From an uncultured Bacteroidales bacterium (GTDB lineage Bacteria; Bacteroidota; Bacteroidia; Bacteroidales; Paludibacteraceae): 60,375 bases of DNA. This document shows, piece by piece, positions 6,734-54,900 of this stretch. The stretch is taken from assembly GCA_900321005.1 (NCBI GenBank), contig ONUF01000020.1, positions 1 to 60,375 on the forward strand, read 5' to 3'. The first letter of the stretch is position 1. Every line of letters begins with the position of its first letter. The notes under the pieces are model-generated. The model did not search any database. It was not told the origin of the DNA and saw only the letters and a list, made by a program, of their open reading frames with translations. Position numbers and translations under genes: made by a program.

Positions 6734-9700
6734 TTACTTCACCTCTTGTCCGGTGACGGTATAGGTCTTGCCGTCGCGGAGGATGAAGATCATGCCGTTC
6801 CGGTAGATCTTGACGCTTTGTACTTCGTCTTTTGTCGTTTCATAACCTTGCCCCTTAACGGTGACCTCGAACTGCGGTCCTTCCGCCCAGTCGCTGATAG
6901 CATGGCCGAGAGCATCCGTAGAGCGGACGAACCATGTCATCGTGTACGTGCCCGGGGTGATCTTATAGGTGTTCACGATGTCTGACAGCGGGCTTGAGAT
7001 AATGTTCTGCGTCATCGTGTTCTGCGAGAACAACTCCACATCGTCGGCAAGCACACGCAGTTCGTACGACACAGCGCCTTCCACTTTGTCCCAGGACAGC
7101 GTGATCTGTACATCGTCAGCCTTCGGTACCAAGAGTGCATTCAGGTTTGACGGAGTGTAGTCTTTCACTTCCTCGTAAAGCGCTTTCACCGTCAGATCCG
7201 ACTTGACTGCATCGAACGGGGTATCCCAGCCGATGAAGACGTAGCCTTCCACTTCGGGTGCTTGGGGAGCGACAGCCGCCTCGTTATACAGCACTTCCTG
7301 CACCTCGATCTCCTTACCGTCCTTGTCGAGGAAGGTCACCTTGTAACTGCGAACGGTCGCCTTGAACACTGCCGTGTAGGTCGCGTCTTCGGTTACAGGA
7401 ACAATAGCCGGATTCCAGCCCGAGAAGGTGTAGGTGTATTGCGCCGTCTGTTCTTTGACAGGTGCTGCTTGGCTCGGCATGTCGCCGTAAGCGTAGGTCT
7501 CCTTCGCGATGACAGAACCGTCGTCCATCTTCCAGGTAATGGTGTAAGTCTGACCGGTTGCGCTGAACTGTGCCTTGTAGGTCACATCGCCGCTGACAGG
7601 TGCTATGGCAGGACTCCAGCCCGTGAAGGTGAAGGTGTTCTGTGCCGTGGCGGGGCGTGACGGTGTTGCCCCCTTGAACGACGGAGTAGCGCCGTACTTA
7701 TAACTCTCCTTGGCGAGTTGCGAGCCGTCCCAGTTGAGCCAGGTCACGGTGTAGCTGCGCTCCGTAGCGCTGAAGACTGCCGTGTAGGTCGCATCGCCGG
7801 TTACGCTTGTCAATGCCGGAGTCCAGCCCGTGAACGTATAGGTGTACTGCGCCGTGGCTTCCTTGACGGGAGCAGCATGGCTCGGCATGTCGCCGTAGTT
7901 ATAGTTCTCCTGTGCGATGACCGAACCGTCGTCCATCTTCCACGTAATGGTGTAACTGTTCTTCGTCTCTTTGAAGACCGCCGTGTAGGTCGCATCGCCG
8001 CTTACGGGAACGACCGCAGGTGTCCAACCAGTGAAGGTGTAGCTGAACTGCTCCGTAGCGGGGCGTACAGGAACAGCGCCGTTGTAGGAAGGCGTCAGGC
8101 CGTAAGCGTAGGTCTCTTTGGCGAGTTCGGCGCCGTCCCAGTTGAGCCAGGTCACGGTGTAGCTGCGCTCCGTAGCGCTGAAGACAGCCGTGTAGGTCGC
8201 ATCGCCGGTTACGCTTGTCAATGCCGGAGTCCAGCCCGTGAACGTATAGGTGTACTGCGCCGTGGATTCCTTGACGGGTGCTGCATGGCTCGGCATGTCG
8301 CCGTAAGCGTAAGTCTCTTTGGCAATGACAGAGCCGTCGTCCATCTTCCATGTAATGGTGTAACTGTTCTTCGTCTCCTTGAAGGTTGCCGTGTAAGTCG
8401 CATCACCGGTTACGGCTACTACTTTCGGCTCCCAACCTGCGAAGGTGTAAGTGTACTCTGCCGTAGCAGCTTTGGTCGGGTCAGCATGCGTCGGTACCAC
8501 ACCTGCCTCCACTTTGGTCTGATCGATGACAGTGCCATCGTCCATCTTCCACGTAATCGTGTACTTCACTATTTTCTTGCGATAGAGTTTCGGCAGGGTG
8601 TACAGGTTATTGCTGTACATACGGAAATAGTTACCGTTATGCTTAAGGACATACGTCTTACTCTCCGATGGGAGGTATTTGGCGATCTCCACGTCCTTGT
8701 TACCTCCGTCGGTGATAGCAAACGCGGAGGCCGTTGCAGATGTAGCGACAGAGTTCTTCTTTTGCAGGTCAAGGTACGTGGTACCATCTGCCAGACGGAT
8801 AGAGAAACTATCGGTGCCAAGCGGTGCAATCGTTACGGCGCAAGCGGTCTCTTTCGGCACATATGCCACATCGCCAACAATGGTCAGTTCGTCCGACGAA
8901 GCGGCAAGGTCACTACCGCTAACCTTCGCATGGGCTTTGTTGTCATCAAAGACGATGAGGTATTCGCCCTCAGCAATGCTCTCTTTGCTGAGATCCACAA
9001 GTTCATATGCCACTTGATCGGCTCCGATCTCCTGAATATTATCACCGAAGTCTTTCCAGCCGTCTTTAGCCTTATAATCCGCTACTGTGCCTGCCGGTAC
9101 ATAAACCGGAATGGTCTTGGGTACATAGTAGAAACAATTCGATCCGCAAGCAGGCGGTGTAGCAGCTCGGCTCGTGATGGATTGTATGCCGGTGCACTCA
9201 TAGAAAGCACCCTTGCCAAGACTTGTGACGCTGTTAGGAATCGTTACAGAGCTTATCTTATTGCAACCGCTAAAAGCGTATCCCGCAATGGACTTGATTC
9301 CTTCCGGTACAACAAATGCGCCTGAGTAGGAAGTCGGCATGTAGGCCAATACATTCTCATTATATAAAGGAGAAGTCAAACTGCTGCAATAACGGAAGGC
9401 ACCCGCTCCAACGCTTATGACGCTGTTGGGAAGGGTTACGGAAGTCATATTGCTGCAATTTTCAAAAGCAGACTCTCCGATGCCCGTGACACCATCGCTG
9501 ATCACAACGGAGTTGATACTTGCTTTATGCGCATTCCACGGAGCCGAAGAAGAGGTATAATCCGCCATTTTTCCTGTTCCGCTGATGGTGAGTACACCGC
9601 TGCAGGGGAGACTCCATGTAAGATTGTCGCCGCTTGCGCCGCAAGTGCCGGAACCAAGATAGCAAGACATCTCCTGAATATTGGTAAAGTAATTCCAATA

Positions 9701-12097
9701 GTTTTCATTATTATAAGCATCTACTGTTCCATATGGCACATAAACCGGAATGGACTTGGTCACGCCAACGAAACATTCGTCGTCACAGTGTGGCGGCGTG
9801 GTGGCTTCACAGGTAATAGACTGCAAACCGGAACATCCGGACAGTGCATTCTCTCCAAGGGTATTGACGCTTGCCGGAAGAGTGATCGTTGTAAAGCCTG
9901 TGCAAGCTTGGAATGCTCCTTCATCTAATGTGGTGACGCCGTCAGGGATGGTTATTGATTTCAAACCGGTACAACCATAGAAAGCGTATGACCCGATATT
10001 TGGGATGCCGGCAGGAATAGTAACAGAAGTGATACTGCTGTACCCGTTGAAAGCAAGGCTTCCGATGCTTGTTACGCCAGCTTCGATTACTACTGACTTA
10101 ATGGAAGCACGGTAGTCATACCACGGAACGTTTTTACCTTGCACCCATTCCGTCATTTTTCCTGTACCTTTGATGGTAAGTACGCCGTCTCCGTCCAATA
10201 CCCAAGTCAGGTTATCACCGCAGGTGCCGGAAGCAATTATTATATTATAAAAATCTGCCCATTCTCCTTTCTTCTTATAACTTGCTACTGACCCTACCGG
10301 TACATAAACTGGAATCGACTTGTCCACGCCGAAGAAGCATTCAGTACCACAGGTAGGCGGCGTAACTGCCAAACTGGTGATAGAGGTTAAACCGCTGCAG
10401 CCATAGAAAGCTTGGTGTTCAATGCTTGTGACGCTGCTGCCAATCGTTACAGATTTCAAACCGGAGCAACTAGTGAAAACAAGATCTCCAATAGTTGTAA
10501 CGCTATTAGGGATGGTAATTGTCGTGAGTTTGCTCATCTGGATGCAGAGATTGTCAGGGATGCTCTCCACTTCGTTGCCGAATGTGAATGACGTTATATT
10601 TCCTTTCGCAGAGTTGAACGGCTCTGTTGCGCTACAGTTTTTTGCATTCCAAACGATAGTTTTCAAGCCGGTGCAATTATCGAAAGCTTGATTTCCAAAA
10701 CTTGTAACGCCTGTGCCAATCGTTACATCGGTCAAACCGGTGCAACCACTGAAAGCTTTGTATCCAATGGTTGTAACGCTGTTCGGGATGGTAATTGTTG
10801 TGAGTTTGCTCATATCCATACAGAGATAAGCAGGAATATTCTCCACTTCGTTGCCGAATGTAAATGAGGTTATATTTCCTATCACAGCAGAGAAAAGATC
10901 TACTGCACTACAGTTTTTTGCATTCCAAACAATCGTTTTTAAGCCGGAGCAATTAGTGAAAACATCGGCGCTCATGCTGGTAACGTTTTCGCCAATAGTA
11001 ACCGATGTTAAACCACTGCAATTAAGGAAAGCCTGCTTTCCAATGCTTGTGACACTATTCGGAATAGTGATAGCGGTCAAACCGGTGCAACCACTGAAAA
11101 CTTGGTCTTCAATGGTTTTGACGCTGTTACCAATCGTTACAGATTTCAAACCGGTGCAATCACTAAAAGCATTGTGTCCAATACTTGTGACGCTGTTGGG
11201 AATGGTTATAGAGGACAAACCAGTGCATTTATAGAAAGCAGCGCCTCCAATACTTTTTACACTATTAGGAATCGTAATTTCTGTAAGTCGGTTCATGTTT
11301 TGGCATATATTAGAAGGAATACTTTCCACTTCGTTGCCGAATGTAAAAGATGTTATATTTTCTGCCGCAGAACTGAAAGGCGATGCACTACAGTTTTTTG
11401 CATTCCAAACGATAGTGGTTAAGCCGGTGCAATTATTGAAAGCAGCACCCCCAATGCTTGTAACGTTGCTCGGGATGGTAATGCTTTTTAGTTTGGTCAT
11501 GTAGTAGCAGATATACCCGGGAATTTTTTGCACGTTGCTTCCGAAAGTAAATGAACGTATATTTTCTCTCACATCAGTAAATGGAGCACTAGGACCATCT
11601 ATTGCATTCCAAACGATTGATTCAAGATTATTGCAATCTTGGAATACATTTGTTCCCCAGCCCGTACTCGTAATGCCTTCTCCGATGGATACAGCAGCCA
11701 GACTGCTGCAAGTATGGAAAGCCTCCTTACCAATGCTTGTAACGCTATTCGGGATAATTACAGAGAGTAGATTGTAACAATTCTTGAAAGCATAATTTTT
11801 AATACTCTTGACACTACTGCCGATAGTGACAGAACTTATATTGTTACAATTATAGAAAGCATATCTTCCGATACTTGTCACGCTATTTCCAATTTTAACT
11901 GTCTTGATGGACGAACGGGAGGAATACCACGGGGCATCTTCAATCACCCAATCCGTCATGTCTCCTGAACCGCTAATGGTAAGCACACCGCTGCTGTTCA
12001 ACTCCCATTTGAGGTTGTCACCGCAGGTGCCGCTTTCGGCGAATAGTGTTCCCGCGCTTGCTACAAGCGCAAGGAAGAAAGTAAAAATCTTTTTCAT
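6734..12097 (-). CDS. Giant BspA-like LRR protein with InlB B-repeats (1787 aa)
   Basis: The start chosen is the ATG at 12097, giving MKKIFTFFLALVASAG...FA as signal peptide; a TTG four codons upstream is also in frame but is not needed. Three BspA modules (SGTCGDNL... opening followed by LRR_5 repeats) fill about residues 20-1000. A lectin-like insert of about 130 residues comes next, then six InlB B-type repeats (YTITWKMDDGSVIA...YTYTFTGW.P....GDATYTAVF) and a seventh divergent one. Then comes an Fn3-like segment (SWDKVEGAVSYELRV...TWFVRS) and the shared tail (FILRDGKTYTVTGQEVK). The family is extracellular, known from Bacteroides, Tannerella and Trichomonas adhesins. Its start lies 37 bp downstream of the relic tail of the preceding LRR gene. 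One operon with the genes at 1460 and 12220 is likely. Confidence 0.92.
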   Translation of the reverse strand: MKKIFTFFLALVASAGTLFAESGTCGDNLKWELNSSGVLTISGSGDMTDWVIEDAPWYSSRSSIKTVKIGNSVTSIGRYAFYNCNNISSVTIGSSVKSIKNYAFKNCYNLLSVIIPNSVTSIGKEAFHTCSSLAAVSIGEGITSTGWGTNVFQDCNNLESIVWNAIDGPSAPFTDVRENIRSFTFGSNVQKIPGYICYYMTKLKSITIPSNVTSIGGAAFNNCTGLTTIVWNAKNCSASPFSSAAENITSFTFGNEVESIPSNICQNMNRLTEITIPNSVKSIGGAAFYKCTGLSSITIPNSVTSIGHNAFSDCTGLKSVTIGNSVKTIEDQVFSGCTGLTAITIPNSVTSIGKQAFLNCSGLTSVTIGENVTSMSADVFTNCSGLKTIVWNAKNCSAVDLFSAVIGNITSFTFGNEVENIPAYLCMDMSKLTTITIPNSVTTIGYKAFSGCTGLTDVTIGTGVTSFGNQAFDNCTGLKTIVWNAKNCSATEPFNSAKGNITSFTFGNEVESIPDNLCIQMSKLTTITIPNSVTTIGDLVFTSCSGLKSVTIGSSVTSIEHQAFYGCSGLTSITSLAVTPPTCGTECFFGVDKSIPVYVPVGSVASYKKKGEWADFYNIIIASGTCGDNLTWVLDGDGVLTIKGTGKMTEWVQGKNVPWYDYRASIKSVVIEAGVTSIGSLAFNGYSSITSVTIPAGIPNIGSYAFYGCTGLKSITIPDGVTTLDEGAFQACTGFTTITLPASVNTLGENALSGCSGLQSITCEATTPPHCDDECFVGVTKSIPVYVPYGTVDAYNNENYWNYFTNIQEMSCYLGSGTCGASGDNLTWSLPCSGVLTISGTGKMADYTSSSAPWNAHKASINSVVISDGVTGIGESAFENCSNMTSVTLPNSVISVGAGAFRYCSSLTSPLYNENVLAYMPTSYSGAFVVPEGIKSIAGYAFSGCNKISSVTIPNSVTSLGKGAFYECTGIQSITSRAATPPACGSNCFYYVPKTIPVYVPAGTVADYKAKDGWKDFGDNIQEIGADQVAYELVDLSKESIAEGEYLIVFDDNKAHAKVSGSDLAASSDELTIVGDVAYVPKETACAVTIAPLGTDSFSIRLADGTTYLDLQKKNSVATSATASAFAITDGGNKDVEIAKYLPSESKTYVLKHNGNYFRMYSNNLYTLPKLYRKKIVKYTITWKMDDGTVIDQTKVEAGVVPTHADPTKAATAEYTYTFAGWEPKVVAVTGDATYTATFKETKNSYTITWKMDDGSVIAKETYAYGDMPSHAAPVKESTAQYTYTFTGWTPALTSVTGDATYTAVFSATERSYTVTWLNWDGAELAKETYAYGLTPSYNGAVPVRPATEQFSYTFTGWTPAVVPVSGDATYTAVFKETKNSYTITWKMDDGSVIAQENYNYGDMPSHAAPVKEATAQYTYTFTGWTPALTSVTGDATYTAVFSATERSYTVTWLNWDGSQLAKESYKYGATPSFKGATPSRPATAQNTFTFTGWSPAIAPVSGDVTYKAQFSATGQTYTITWKMDDGSVIAKETYAYGDMPSQAAPVKEQTAQYTYTFSGWNPAIVPVTEDATYTAVFKATVRSYKVTFLDKDGKEIEVQEVLYNEAAVAPQAPEVEGYVFIGWDTPFDAVKSDLTVKALYEEVKDYTPSNLNALLVPKADDVQITLSWDKVEGAVSYELRVLADDVELFSQNTMTQNIISSPLSDIVNTYKITPGTYTMTWFVRSTDALGHAISDWAEGPQFEVTVKGQGYETTKDEVQSVKIYRNGMIFILRDGKTYTVTGQEVK
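7165..8572 (-). repeat. Tandem InlB B-repeat coding array
   Basis: Six units of about 67-72 codons plus a divergent last one. Two subtypes alternate: WKMDDGSVIAKETYAYGD and WLNWDGAELAKETYAYG. Their DNA is nearly identical over long stretches, for example around 7880-7990 and 8270-8390. Such identity between copies favours recombination and change of copy number. Confidence 0.85.
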
Positions 12098-42218: not shown

Positions 42219-43133
42219 TTATTTATCTTTTTTGCCGAAGAGCGAGAAGTGCACATAGCGTTTCGGGTGTGCCTTCAGATCGACGAGCAGACTGTCAGCC
42301 GAAACGACGGTAGCGTCGATGTGGTTATAGAGCGATTTGTTGTAGATCAACTGACCGATCGTGCCGTCTTGCGAGCGAACGTCGGATACAAGTCCGTTGA
42401 CATTATCCACAGCGTTGTCCACACGTGCTACGGTGGCCTTCAGGTCCGCCTGCTTGATATCCGCCACGATCGTATTGAGGTTGGCGATCGCCGTATCGGC
42501 ATTGTTGACGATGGTCGGTACTTGGGTCTTCATCATGTGCTTGAGGTTCGACGAGACGGAAGTCAGGTCACCGGAGATTCGATCGACATTCTCCAGCGAG
42601 TTCTTGATATGATCGCCTTCTACCTGCGTACGCAGCGCCGCTACGAGTGAGTCCACTTCCTGTACCGCTTCGTCCACGTGCGCCAACAGTTCGTTCTGCA
42701 GGCTCTCTATCAGTCCCGGCACATAGGTGGTATTGAGAAAGGCGCCTTTCTCAATCATTTGTGATTGGTCATTGGTCATTGATGATGACTCCGGGAACTG
42801 CAGTTCTATCGCCATGCCGCCGAGCATGCCGTCAGAGACGAGCGCCATCTTCGTACCTTGCGGCAGGGCGATGTCCTTGCGGATGGAGATATCCACGAGG
42901 AAGGCGCTGTCACGGGTGAAGTCATAGTGCAGTCGGTCCACTTGCCCCACTTTATGACCGCGGATATACACCGCTGCCTGCTCTTCCAATCCGTGCAGGT
43001 GGCAGAAAACACCGTGGTAACTGTTCGTCGGCGAGAAGATGTTCACGCCTTTGAGGAAGTTGAAACCAAAAAACAAAAGGAAAAGACAGACGGTGGCCAA
43101 AATGCCTACCTTTATCTCACGTGCGTACTTCAT
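42219..43133 (-). CDS. mlaD: MlaD/MCE-family lipid transport protein
   Basis: The 304-residue protein has one N-terminal membrane helix (VGILATVCLFLLFFGFNFL), an MCE domain at about residues 35-115 (YHGVFCHLHGLEEQAAVYIRGHKVGQV ... DIALPQGTKMALVSDGMLGGMAIEL) and a long helical C-terminal half (KAEV-like coiled coil with ADIKQADLKATVARVDNAVDNV). MCE proteins of this layout carry lipids between the membranes in an ABC system; the permease and ATPase are not nearby. It is 30 bp downstream of the amidase, a pairing common in Bacteroidetes. Residues SSSMTNDQSQM after the MCE domain come from a heptamer array (42752-42786). Confidence 0.92.
   Translation of the reverse strand: MKYAREIKVGILATVCLFLLFFGFNFLKGVNIFSPTNSYHGVFCHLHGLEEQAAVYIRGHKVGQVDRLHYDFTRDSAFLVDISIRKDIALPQGTKMALVSDGMLGGMAIELQFPESSSMTNDQSQMIEKGAFLNTTYVPGLIESLQNELLAHVDEAVQEVDSLVAALRTQVEGDHIKNSLENVDRISGDLTSVSSNLKHMMKTQVPTIVNNADTAIANLNTIVADIKQADLKATVARVDNAVDNVNGLVSDVRSQDGTIGQLIYNKSLYNHIDATVVSADSLLVDLKAHPKRYVHFSLFGKKDK
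42752..42786. repeat. Heptamer array inside mlaD
   Basis: Five units in exact 7-nt register: CAATCAT, TTGTGAT, TGGTCAT, TGGTCAT, TGATGAT. They encode the loop SSMTNDQSQMI at the end of the MCE domain. Confidence 0.8.
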
Positions 43134-43134
43134 A

Positions 43135-43166
43135 TCTCTTTAACTCTTTAATTCTTTCACTCTTTA
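43135..43166. repeat. Octamer array in the amidase-mlaD junction
   Basis: Units TCTCTTTA, ACTCTTTA, ATTCTTTC, ACTCTTTA fill the gap between the amidase stop (43164-43166) and the mlaD start codon. Confidence 0.75.
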
Positions 43167-44249
43167 CTCTGTCCACTTCGTGATCCAACAATCGGGGAAG
43201 AGCGGTTGCAGTTCTTTCTGCTTCGCCACCACCTTCTCGCGGTCGGTGTCGATGATAGCGTAGTATTTGTACCAGTCGCCCACTTTCCTGCTCTCGCATA
43301 CGACACCTTTGAGTTTCGGATCGGACGCGTCAAGGGGTGCGCGGGAAGCGCTTATCTGCAGAGCGTAGTAGGTCTGGGGCTTCGCGGGGGCTTGAGGCTT
43401 TGCCTCGTTTACAGGCTGCTCCGCAGCGTTTATTTGTGGCTCTGCCACGTTTATAGGCGCCTCCGGCGCGTTTAGTTGCGGTTTCTCCACTTTCTTGACT
43501 TCCTGGCGGTGGGTGTAGGCCGCAAAGGCGTTGACGAGGGCGGTAGCCATCATGTCCATCGTCGTGTCGGCGTTCAGGAACTTCTCCTCCTCGGCATTGG
43601 AGATGAAGCCCATCTCGAAGAGGATAGCCGGGCAGGCGGTCTTGAGCAGCACCCAGAACGAAGCCTGTTGCACGCCGCGGTCGGAGCGGTTGAGGTGACC
43701 GACGAAATGTTTCTGCACTTGCGTGGCAAACTGCAGCGACTGGTCCATGAAGTTATTCTGCATCAACTCGAACATGATATACGAGTCGATAGAGTTGGGG
43801 TCAAAACCCTGATAGGTGGTCTTGTAGTCCGATTCGAGTTTCATCACGGCATTCTCGCGCATCGCGACGTCGAGGTTCTTCTCTGCCTTCTCTGTTCCGA
43901 GGATGAAGGTCTCCACGCCTTTGGAGTTCTTGTTCTCCGAAGCGTTGGTATGGATGGAGATAAAGAGGTCGGCATTGTTCTTGTTCGCGATGTCGGCGCG
44001 GGTCTGCAGGGGGATGAACACGTCCGTCGAGCGGGTATAGACAATGTTCAGATCGGGGTACTGCGCCTTAAGCAGTTCGCCCATTTTGAGCACGAGAGAC
44101 AGGTTAAGGTCTTTCTCTTGCGAGAACTTACCTACTGCACCCGGGTCCTTTCCGCCGTGACCGGCATCGAGCACCACCGTGTACCCCTTCGCCGCCATCA
44201 TCGACAGCGCGCAGAAGAGAACCAATATGATCGTCAGCGTCTTACGCAT
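43164..44249 (-). CDS. N-acetylmuramoyl-L-alanine amidase with SPOR domain
   Basis: This periplasmic zinc amidase cleaves the bond between muramic acid and the stem peptide. Signal peptide to about residue 20; Amidase_3 domain about 22-245 with zinc ligands in VVLDAGHGGKDPGAVG and SIHTNAS and the catalytic Glu in ILFEMGFISN. A linker of about 50 residues made of heptapeptides xAExxxN/xAxxP (APEAPIN, VAEPQIN, AAEQPVN, EAKPQAP) follows, then a C-terminal SPOR-like domain (about 290-361; YYALQISASRAPLDASDP) that binds denuded glycan at division sites. The linker DNA (43394-43477) is an array of four 21-nt hairpin units. The gene leads an operon with mlaD. Confidence 0.95.
   Translation of the reverse strand: MRKTLTIILVLFCALSMMAAKGYTVVLDAGHGGKDPGAVGKFSQEKDLNLSLVLKMGELLKAQYPDLNIVYTRSTDVFIPLQTRADIANKNNADLFISIHTNASENKNSKGVETFILGTEKAEKNLDVAMRENAVMKLESDYKTTYQGFDPNSIDSYIMFELMQNNFMDQSLQFATQVQKHFVGHLNRSDRGVQQASFWVLLKTACPAILFEMGFISNAEEEKFLNADTTMDMMATALVNAFAAYTHRQEVKKVEKPQLNAPEAPINVAEPQINAAEQPVNEAKPQAPAKPQTYYALQISASRAPLDASDPKLKGVVCESRKVGDWYKYYAIIDTDREKVVAKQKELQPLFPDCWITKWTE
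43394..43477. repeat. Array of four 21-nt hairpin units in the amidase linker
   Basis: Each unit has 5-nt arm, 3-nt loop, complementary 5-nt arm and 8-nt spacer. Arms: GAGGC/GCCTC (43394), GCTGC/GCAGC (43415), GTGGC/GCCAC (43436), GCGCC/GGCGC (43457). Loops TTT, TCC, TCT, TCC. Spacers GTTTACAG, GTTTATTT, GTTTATAG, GTTTAGTT. The arms differ but all 20 pairs are Watson-Crick, and GTTTA is constant. The unit length keeps the reading frame (7 codons). Confidence 0.9.
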
Positions 44250-44299
44250 AATCTTACCGTTTTTTATCCTTCAGCAAAAGTCCCACACCTTTGCCGCTG

Positions 44300-44330
44300 C
44301 AAAGGTACTGCTTTTTTTTGACATATGCAA
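44300..44330 (-). promoter_or_regulatory. Promoter of the amidase-mlaD operon
   Basis: TTG (44330-44328), 20-nt spacer, TACCTTTG (44307-44300), minus strand, extended -33 TTTGCATATGTCA. The -7 box is one arm of the palindrome ACCTTTGC-N4-GCAAAGGT. Confidence 0.85.
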
Positions 44331-44401
44331 ATAAAAATGAAAAAATGCCGCACATAGTTGCTGCCAATAGGTGATAAAAATGCATAATATTTAAAAAATA
44401 T

Positions 44402-51900: not shown

Positions 51901-54900
51901 ATGAGAAAAGCATTGCTACTTTGCATGTTGTGGCTGGCGACAAGTATCGTTTTCGCGCAAGAGCAACAGCAACAACCACCTCAACTGCAGGTGGGAGACA
52001 CCATTACGGTGAACAAGGATGCGACGCATTATCTGACGGGAGAGAGAATCTCCAAGTGGGTTTATCGCGTCACGCATCGTATCCGTCAAATCGGCACCAA
52101 GCAATGGAAAGACGGTATCCTGATCCGTGGTATCAATTCCTGGCTAGCACCGACAGACGTCACCCGAGTAGGCGAAGAACGTCCTGCTGTTGTGGAGCAA
52201 CCCAAAGAGGCAGCGCCTGTTGTTGCGGAGCAGCCGCAAGAGGAGGCACCCGTAGTAGCGGAGCAGCCTAAAGAGGAAGTTCCTGCTGTTGCAGAGCAGC
52301 CTGAAGAGGCAGCGCCCGTGGTTGCGGAGCAGCCGCAAGAAGAGGTGAAGAAAGTGTATATCCAGACCGCTCTCCGGGGACGCGTGATTGCCAACAACAC
52401 CAACCAACCTATTATCGGTGCCAAAGTAACGCTCGCTAACCAGAACATTTCTACTACCACCAATGTGGACGGTGAGTTTATGCTCAGTTACCTGGAGCCG
52501 ACGGACGAAGAGGTGATCGTTGAGGCAGACGGTTATGTGGCTGCGCTCGAGTTGGTCAACCTGCAAGAGAACCAAATCAATGACATGGAGGACGTACTCA
52601 TGGGTCCGGATGTGGTTGCGCTGGCGCAGGAGGAGATTCTTCTGAACCTCACGGAAGAAGAGATGACGGACGATGAAGGTCGTTCGCAGTCCCAAGCATC
52701 CTCGTCTTCGGCTTCGACGGATGTGTTCAACTCCACGACCTCTTTCGCATGGTCCAGCGCGCGTTACCGCAACCGTGGTTACCAATCGAACGTAGAGAAC
52801 TACTACATCGAAGGTCTGAACTTCAACTCGCAAGAACGCGGTAACTTCAACTTCTCCGCTATGGGAGGTCTGAACGACGCCAGCCGCTACAAAGAGGTGC
52901 TGAACCCGATGGAGGCAAGTAACTTCACCTTCGGCGGTATCGCCGGTTCGACGAACTACCTGATGGGAGCGAACCTGTATGCAGCCGGATGGAAAGTAGG
53001 TGTAGCGGGTACGAACCGTAACTACAAGGCCCGTGTGAACGCGACTTACGCCAGCGGAGTGATGTCCAACGGATGGTCCGTCATCGCGCAGTTGGCTTAC
53101 CGTTTCTCCCCGTATATCGACCATAAAGGTATCATCGGCGAAGGTATCAAGTACTACTCGCTCGGTTATTTCCTGTCGGTACAGAAGATGTGGAGTAACG
53201 CCGCGCTGAAACTGATCACTTTCGGTGCTCCGACCGAGCGCGGCCAGAACGCAGCCGTGACGCAAGAGGTGTATGACCTCACCGGTTCGATTTACTACAA
53301 CCCCTATTGGGGCTACCAGAACGGCAAGGTGCGCAACTCGCGTATCGTGAAGTCGTACGACCCGACGTTCATTGCTTCCTTCGAGTACAAGATCGATGAG
53401 AACCAACATCTCCACGCAGCTGTCGGCTATCACTACTCGCTCTACTCGAACTCGGCGATTAACTTCTACAACGCACCGGATCCGCGCCCGGACTACTACC
53501 GCAATCTGCCGTCATTCATGTGGGACGGTCAGATCGCTAACCCGAACGCGAACGCCAAGTATACCGAGGATCAGCTCTACGACGAAAACGGTAACCACTA
53601 CCCATGGGGTCTGTTCATCGGCGAGGACCTGAACGGCCGTAACCTCGGCTCCGGTTTCATTGGCGATGACGGCAACCTCGTTGGTCCGTCGGTGGACAAA
53701 GATGCATACAACGACCTCGTACACCTCTGGCAGACGCGCGACAACAAGACCACACAGATCGACTGGGAGTCTATCTACGCTGCGAACTACTCCAATAACG
53801 CGAGTGATGCCGCACGCGATACCATCACGTCGTCCCGTTATATCCTGGAGCGCCGTCATAATGACATCCAAGAGGCCAGTGCTTCCTTCCTGTATTTCAA
53901 CGACAAGTATGATCATCTGAAGATGACCCTCGGCGTAGAAGGCAAGTTTGCGCAAGGCATCCACTACAAGACGATCGACGACCTATTAGGCGGAAACCAA
54001 TGGATAGACTTGGATGCATTCGCTGAGCGCGACATCAAAGAGTTGGCGAATAATACCGGCTTCACGCAGCAAGACATCAATATTATCATGCAGAACGACT
54101 TGTATCACCCCAACAAGCAGATCCGCACAGGCGAACGCTTCGGCTACGACTACCGTATGAACATGGGTCATGCCAAAGTGTGGTTCCAGAACGAATGGAA
54201 CTTCAATGAGGTGGATCTGTACTATGCACTGGCTTTTGACTACAACTCGATGCAACGTACAACGCGTATGTTCAACGGCCGTCAGGCTTACTTGGCTACC
54301 TTGGCATACCAACGTGGTACAATATGGAAATACCTTGGTCACGATACACAACAATACTTTGAAGTTCGTCCTATGTATTACGGCGACACCCACCACTTCG
54401 TGGATCCGTCGTTCAAGTTAGGCGCGACGTATAAGATCAACGGCCGTAACCGCCTGAAACTGAACGCACTGGCTCAGACGCGCGCGCCGTACAGCCGCGA
54501 TGCCTATATTTCGCAGCGTGTACACGACCGCGTAGTGGATAACATCTATACGCACGATCAGGCAAAGAACATCACGGATTTCTATGCAGCCAGTGAGCGC
54601 GTCGCGTCGGCTGACCTCACCTACGAGTTCAACTACCCGATCGTTCGCGGACGTGTCACCGGTTTCTACACCCGTTCGTGGAATGGTACGGAGCTGAACA
54701 GCTACTATGACGATGAGTCCCGTACCTTCGTCAACCAGGCTATTACGGGTATCGGCAAACAGCACGTCGGAGCGGAAGCTGCTATCGCTGTCAAACTCGG
54801 TACATACTTCACCCTCACCGGTGTTGCTTCGGTAGGCGATTACCGCTATACGAACGACGCTATGGCGCTGACTTCGGCCGAGAACGGTATGCCGATGGCG

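Follow-up and report, generated by a model that had tools for sequence, protein, structure and literature searches.

TAMAC-tagged mini-hairpin arrays with variable, usually matched arms in genes and intergenic regions of a Bacteroidales genus

The DNA analysed here (the window, 60,375 nucleotides from an uncultured Bacteroidales bacterium) carries an N-acetylmuramoyl-L-alanine amidase gene on its minus strand. Four consecutive 21-nt units are found within this gene, with a period of exactly 21 and 20/20 Watson-Crick pairs. The array encodes part of the region between the Amidase_3 domain (aa 25–241) and the C-terminal part of the protein. The features are as follows, with letters in gene sense.

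43164..44249, minus strand, N-acetylmuramoyl-L-alanine amidase gene (Pfam Amidase_3 at aa 25–241)
43369..43474, minus strand, 106-nt stretch identical to L035 (RUG14329), with the whole array inside (alignment)
43470..43474, minus strand, leading tag TAAAC, where the 106-nt identity with the sister species starts (alignment)
43457..43469, minus strand, hairpin 1, GCGCC-GGA-GGCGC (sequence, pattern match)
43449..43456, minus strand, 8-nt spacer CTATAAAC (sequence)
43436..43448, minus strand, hairpin 2, GTGGC-AGA-GCCAC (sequence, pattern match)
43428..43435, minus strand, 8-nt spacer AAATAAAC (sequence)
43415..43427, minus strand, hairpin 3, GCTGC-GGA-GCAGC (sequence, pattern match)
43407..43414, minus strand, 8-nt spacer CTGTAAAC with the tag TAAAC, + strand GTTTA (sequence; TAAAC is the commonest pre-hairpin pentamer)
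43394..43406, minus strand, hairpin 4, GAGGC-AAA-GCCTC, 5 bp and a 3-nt loop (sequence, fold)

On the + strand the hairpins read GAGGC-TTT-GCCTC (43394–43406), GCTGC-TCC-GCAGC (43415–43427), GTGGC-TCT-GCCAC (43436–43448) and GCGCC-TCC-GGCGC (43457–43469), and the spacers are, in order, GTTTACAG, GTTTATTT, GTTTATAG and finally GTTTA. In mRNA sense the unit consists of TAAAC, an arm, a loop (GGA, AGA, GGA or AAA) and the second arm. Because the arms differ between units, Tandem Repeats Finder detects the array only faintly, with weak calls at period 42 (80% match) and period 21 (67%). An Rfam search of positions 42900–44400 showed one sub-threshold match only, situated outside the array.

The pairing could in principle be an accident of codon bias in an Ala/Pro/Glu linker that is selected at the protein level. 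The amidase peptide permits much pairing, and synonymous draws with the peptide fixed and local codon usage average 13.7 of 20 bp. However, these draws reach a maximum of 19, and 20 bp is attained in 0/200,000, which rules out chance and codon bias as the source. The joint probability of four perfect hairpins under such draws is 6.5e-6, and shuffling of the segment's own synonymous codons gives P = 5.1e-4 for the array pairing. Thus the peptide alone is insufficient. In addition, hairpins of the same kind occur in another reading frame and between genes, and linker selection at the protein level alone is therefore rejected as a highly improbable explanation. A preliminary description of this DNA had claimed four units of the same build with every pair intact, which is exact in the sequence, and had held protein-level selection on the linker to be inadequate, which agrees with the rarity of equal pairing in codon-preserving draws and permutations. 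The fold of the whole array stretch on the gene strand is only moderately unusual, with z = −2.0 as RNA (8/200 shuffles equally good) and z = −2.5 as DNA (4/200).

The amidase array is a member of a dispersed family with the gene-sense form 5′-TAMAC-[G..C](loop, mostly GNA)[G..C]-AN. The pattern TAAACGNNGCNRAGCNNC, which leaves pairing free, gave 5 matches in the window's own genome and 5/5 are paired; three lie in the amidase array and two in other genes, a DHH phosphoesterase gene and, in a different frame, an MMPL transporter gene. A wider pattern with three pairs free gave 26 matches vs 9 for the reversed pattern. Pairing is perfect in 18/26, 14 of these outside the amidase array, with 0.4 expected. 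In an own-genome sample of 361 kb of non-N sequence, consisting of the window and further stretches picked around matches, TAAAC is the commonest pentamer preceding 5-3-5 hairpins, with 22 occurrences; the next pentamers reach at most 6, and about 0.8 are expected excluding N-masked positions. Arrays are found in genes for the amidase, DHH phosphoesterase, Mur ligase, DAHP synthase, MMPL, MurG, a GltD-like protein, pseudouridine synthase and RsgA, and further arrays are intergenic.

Two TAMAC anchors enclose 103 distinct 13-nt cores, collected with pairing not required, of which 43 are perfect hairpins (0.1 expected), although 2 of the 43, with TTTAA arms, resemble plain heptamer repeats. Three control anchors gave 0/50, 0/77 and 0/38, a total of 0/165. 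TAMAC-hairpin-TAMAC places with a stem of at least 3 bp number 200, duplicates counted and from loci mostly selected by matches, vs 0–1 for seven control anchors. Stems of 3, 4, 5 and 6 bp between the anchors exceed expectation. Stems of 2 bp (4/49 cores vs 3.1 expected) and of 7 bp (0/30 cores) are not above chance, and the family is therefore claimed for stems of 3–6 bp. Stems of 3 bp with 4-nt loops are found in 8/53 cores with TAMAC and also in 2/36, 4/33 and 2/41 with control anchors.

The hairpin family is wider than 21-nt coding units, with stems of 3–6 bp, mostly 7-nt spacers and many intergenic arrays. The two bases AC, AA or AT stand before TAMAC (a 7-nt spacer) in 98/141 distinct units; the amidase array uses 8 nt. 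Exact tandem repeats in the own-genome sample have period 7 in 32 cases, and each of the remaining periods between 5 and 12 accounts for at most 6. The same spacer is present in hairpin-free arrays (L294, L128). Hairpins of varying length sit between the spacers, and the family units are not head-to-tail heptamers.

Three-nt loops on the TAMAC strand are GNA in 99/143 and TNC in 1/143. The base preceding the loop is C in 137/143 and the first arm base is G in 132/143; both are partly fixed by the search patterns, and the loop was free except with TAAACGNNGCNRAGCNNC. C(GNA)G is an extraordinarily stable DNA mini-hairpin, e.g. d(GCGAAGC). At 12/12 sites (genes with a Pfam family or genus-wide orthologs), TAMAC of the main array lies on the coding strand, and an extra hairpin that ends the Mur ligase array carries an antisense tag. 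The tag appears antisense in 11/42 longest frames listed; one of the 11 is the DHH gene, for which Pfam backs the sense reading. Intergenic arrays in G092 show both orientations. The antisense reading of the arrays is an Arg/Leu-rich peptide, and for this reason the sense-strand bias of TAMAC may be a protein-level filter. The fixed tag, the loop polarity and the terminal pairs suggest specific recognition.

Although the arms differ between copies, the two sides are usually complementary, and this suggests copying or retention of the hairpin shape as such. Covariation was counted without alignment. Over the full set of 103 cores, regardless of pairing, the paired fraction of cells is 68.3% vs 42.2% after shuffling of the 3′ letters, with 142 double-change cells vs 58. 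For the 47 cores with a first G and a last C (40 perfect), the values are 94.5% vs 66.1% and 67 double changes vs 21. The observed paired fraction and double-change count are attained by 0/1000 shuffles in both sets, and pairing in the 47 cores is at most 56% when the partner is slid by 1–3 positions.

An element about 70 bp long with three hairpins, TAAAC[hp]AGTTAAAC[hp]AGTGTAAAC[hp]NGTGTA, is found in the Mur ligase gene, the DAHP synthase gene (twice), the DHH gene and the GltD-like gene of another species. It displays double changes at 9/16 pairs, 13 cells vs 4.0 (0/500 shuffles). At an orthologous site in the gene of locus L296, the first hairpin has GCTCC/GGAGC arms in G448 and G463, GCTTC/GAAGC in G420 and G459, GTTTC/GAAAC in G004, GGTTC/GAACC in G136 and, with one G-U, GGTTT/GAACC in G442. 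Double changes are present at two pairs of this site, and the score is attained by 4/500 shuffles. Weakened or broken hairpins also exist: the middle hairpin of one DAHP copy has one mismatch and two G-U pairs, the outer pair of the third hairpin at the L296 site is G-T in G448, G463 and G459, and the G449 murG hairpin is weakened or broken. Thus pair maintenance is not strict.

A survey of 178 genomes of the genus with a two-anchor pattern, pairing not required, and the reversed pattern as control (counts in parentheses) gave 73 matches in G092 (2), 23 in G000 (1), 19 in G463 (1), 15 in G451 (2), 15 in G448 (0), 13 in G449 (2), 11 each in G064 (3), G029 (4) and G091 (1), 7 each in G084 and G469 (0), and 6 in G115 (0); some matches in other genomes are plain heptamers, and those of G029 are mostly an 11-nt repeat without pairing. 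Most of the 178 genomes are close to background. Perfect hairpins make up 53/59 of the matches of five genomes (G115 5/6, G448 13/15, G451 15/15, G463 17/19, G741 3/4). G741, of the same class but another family, shows the same architecture with tags TAA[ACG]C, and it alone stood out by eye among the matches listed for a phylum sample of 395 genomes. Pattern counts in 295 genomes of the order are not generally higher than those of the reversed pattern. The relatives are assigned to Paludibacteraceae or Bacteroidales and the hosts, where named (L031–L067), are goat, sheep, deer or yak.

Near-identical arrays are present at several intergenic G092 loci. An anchor-free cluster scan of the relatives' loci gave mostly chance-like hairpins, with clear arrays in L035 and L149. 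Small samples were also searched for other tags. In G136, TAACA ranked first (9 vs 1.5), mainly from one murG locus and one AT-rich stretch, and nothing convincing emerged in G029, G465 and G128. Viral contigs, searched with one 21-nt pattern only, have 60 two-anchor places with 0 paired and 0.9 expected by chance, and one array compared with phages and another compared with plasmids gave no match; these searches lend a phage or plasmid origin no support.

Several single sequences were also observed. The G029 11-nt repeats, TAAACGCACAA and TAAACGGACAA, resemble right hairpin arms lacking partners. G301:C29:2823–2861, of the same order but another family, has two tandem TAAAC-GTTTC-NNN-GAAAC units at 21-nt spacing, both paired. 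The intergenic arrays of G092 (L172–L201) include two half-arrays of opposite orientation beside a terminator-like GTGCAG..CTGCAC stem.

The arrays turn over in tolerated slots in a species-specific manner, and the slots of relatives are empty or hold other short repeats. Among 30 orthologs at the L296 site, 6 are empty, 7 have TAMAC hairpins and 17 have different sequence, most of it short repeats of other kinds as judged by eye. A loop of murG (Pfam Glyco_transf_28) carries TAAAC hairpins in 2/30 loci (G000, G067), the same kind of hairpin on a different tag, GGTCTAACA, in G136 (L337), and heptamer repeats, e.g. GAAAGTC, GGTGAAA and GAGTCAA, in many other loci. Among 20 more genomes, chosen partly by length or known matches, G018 has hairpins at the same murG loop, and G036, G451, G449 and G143 (different tag) at a second loop. 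Heptamers also occupy the amidase linker of relatives, GAGTCAA in L066 and CAATCGT in L008.

In the same genes, L362 (G143 murG) shows hairpins of this kind on another tag (GGTCTAACA or GGTCTTACA across L337 and L362). In L355, L358 and L365, the second murG loop, which is the loop with TAMAC hairpins in other species, contains a C/G-run palindrome encoding PLYGG/PLHGG peptides. The amidase linkers of L031 and L032 (about 2263–2362), which are close relatives, display GAGCC(AAA)GGCTC and CCGGC(AAA or TAA)GCCGG hairpins without the TAMAC tag.

Other repeats occur in the window as well. An in-frame TTGGTCA heptamer repeat at 42755–42781 in the neighbouring MlaD-type gene is another repeat slot in a conserved gene, and 7/8-nt CTCTTTAA-like repeats are found at 43136–43170 between the MlaD and amidase genes. 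Tandem repeats of 33 bp (4.6 copies, 52183–52334) apparently encode an Ala/Pro/Glu/Gln-rich stretch. Large tandem repeats of about 204/408 bp (7363–8467) and of about 276/69 bp (10406–11272) perhaps belong to repetitive surface proteins.

The compared part of the amidase gene of L035, a sister species, shows 88.9% identity to the window gene over 874 columns. The fully identical 106-nt stretch starts exactly at the first TAAAC and contains the whole array. An identical stretch of that length is present in 1/20,000 codon-pattern shuffles. Third positions are identical at 28/28 in the array, 134/185 upstream and 46/76 downstream. The identity could reflect either recent copying or constraint.

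Dispersed copies, double changes and turnover together indicate that the hairpin is copied or kept. This had been the central proposal of the preliminary description, and it is borne out by the dispersal of copies to unrelated genes and intergenic sites, by compensatory double changes that are seen between dispersed copies as well as at one site compared across orthologs, by the second reading frame used in the MMPL gene and by empty sites in relatives. The architecture recurs in the window's own genome and in relatives, and the dispersed copies in unrelated genes also back the view that in-frame copies are tolerated.

The units are directional, stand in tandem arrays and are dispersed to unrelated and intergenic sites, with structure kept while sequence differs. 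Repeat copying with fold-back template switching is the favoured explanation. In its complete form, to which we assign somewhat less than an even chance, the arrays of this dispersed hairpin-punctuated repeat family would lengthen and shorten through slippage between TAMAC repeats with the hairpins looped out, and entire arrays would be copied into new places or swapped between species. Fold-back template switching on single-stranded DNA would make and re-match the arms; one arm would template the other, so that both sides would change in one step. Protein-level selection would act just as a filter for frame and for a hydrophilic, linker-like peptide. In the literature, template switching has been described as giving rise to perfect stems and to changes in pairs (PMC8794818). 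However, the generic process leaves the TAMAC preference, the strand of the GNA loop and the G-first arm unexplained. The hairpins of the window's genome are associated with TAMAC and not with the other heptamers found there, and no other pentamer is comparable to TAAAC. Generic template switching accounts neither for the tag nor for the loop polarity and the terminal pairs, which leaves room for dedicated recognition. It is conceivable, though on balance doubtful, that the unit is a minimal selfish or functional nucleic-acid element, a 5-nt tag with a GNA mini-hairpin and a free stem, for which dedicated machinery would read structure and not sequence. Such an element, if real, would move between housekeeping-gene linkers across a Bacteroidales genus and beyond (G741).

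Two other explanations account for some of these features. The arrays may be mobile hairpin elements similar to REPs or to IS200/IS605 ends, in which a putative enzyme would recognise TAMAC at the base of a single-stranded mini-hairpin, inserting or copying units; only tag, terminal pairs and loop would matter, and the mid-stem would therefore be free. This is an unlikely but serious alternative. The fixed tag, the outer G-C and closing C-G (partly ascertained) and the loop polarity of 99:1 argue for it, as do the homologous three-hairpin copies at five places in two species, the near-identical intergenic loci of G092 and the 106 nt shared by the window species and L035. However, adjacent units mostly carry different arms, and a search of 16 genomes for the RAYT-type Y1 transposase (PF01797) gave matches in 4, array-poor ones included, with none in the genome richest in pattern matches, G092 (41 and 73), and a partial one in G000 (49/121 positions). 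That partial match (G000:C30:67784–67936, L264) scores 25 bits and lies in a 441-aa frame.

A nucleic-acid-level regulatory site, where an RNA- or ssDNA-binding protein would read GNA mini-hairpins spaced by AMUAMAC and selection would keep the pairing, appears less probable still. The polarity of tag and loop, the coding-strand position of the main array at all 12 sites, the location of some arrays directly upstream of start codons (by eye) and the conserved third positions in the amidase array are consistent with it. But the arrays lie within many unrelated genes and are missing or replaced in close relatives, those of G092 run in both orientations between genes, and antisense tags occur at the Mur ligase array end and in the 11 listed frames noted above; the sense bias itself may stem from the peptide.

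The TAMAC arrays record, in natural replicates, how arms change in pairs within very small stems, both genic and intergenic, in several related species. This record makes it testable whether compensatory change passes through broken intermediates under selection or occurs by one-step template switching. The arrays are also a route for housekeeping enzymes of a genus to gain and swap short linker peptides, and these peptides may be by-products of DNA structure. Identity-based repeat finders detect such arrays poorly because pairing is more conserved than sequence.

Among known systems, REP/BIME sequences with RAYT transposases share short hairpins, a conserved tag at one end, arrays and a location that is largely intergenic and in part intragenic. 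The REP tag is GTAG or CGTC and the RAYT is the associated tyrosine transposase. In contrast, the tag here is TAMAC, the units are shorter and the arms vary from unit to unit. REPs driven by a RAYT were rejected, the Y1 transposase not tracking the arrays in the 16 genomes tested.

The preliminary description had likened the array to the palindromic elements of Rickettsia. The likeness stands with respect to palindromic DNA inserted in frame within many unrelated genes (here 12 sites in named or conserved genes). It does not extend to tag or arms: the Rickettsia elements are about 150 bp and form defined families with a conserved peptide, as given in the accessible text of PMC10969869, and those of R. 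conorii reportedly end in CGTC (PMC3733652, accessible part), whereas the family here consists of 14–21 nt tandem units with a TAMAC tag, arms that are free in sequence and use of at least two reading frames. Thus by tag and size the hairpin family is neither a REP nor a Rickettsia element.

Heptameric simple sequence repeats (TAACTGA and others) are intergenic and sometimes genic in Bacteroidetes including Paludibacter (PMC4679880, PMC4692102, in the portions available). Period-7 spacing is common to them and the TAMAC arrays, but they are plain direct repeats, and the available portions describe no paired hairpins between heptamers. Coding palindromes in Nematomorpha mitochondria are perfect inverted repeats of up to 284 bp whose arms encode conserved protein regions (PMC6649704, accessible part). 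They likewise are kept within protein-coding genes but, unlike the present family, are mitochondrial and are not small tandem inserts. Among the papers listed by literature searches, judged by title or abstract start, no such arrays are described. The hairpins ascribed to template switching at quasipalindromes (PMC8794818) are described for RNA genes, and the accessible part of that paper reports no tagged, tandem, dispersed family. Common to both are perfect stems and double compensatory changes, which by template switching can arise in one event; the TAMAC arrays display the stems as well as the matched change of both arms.
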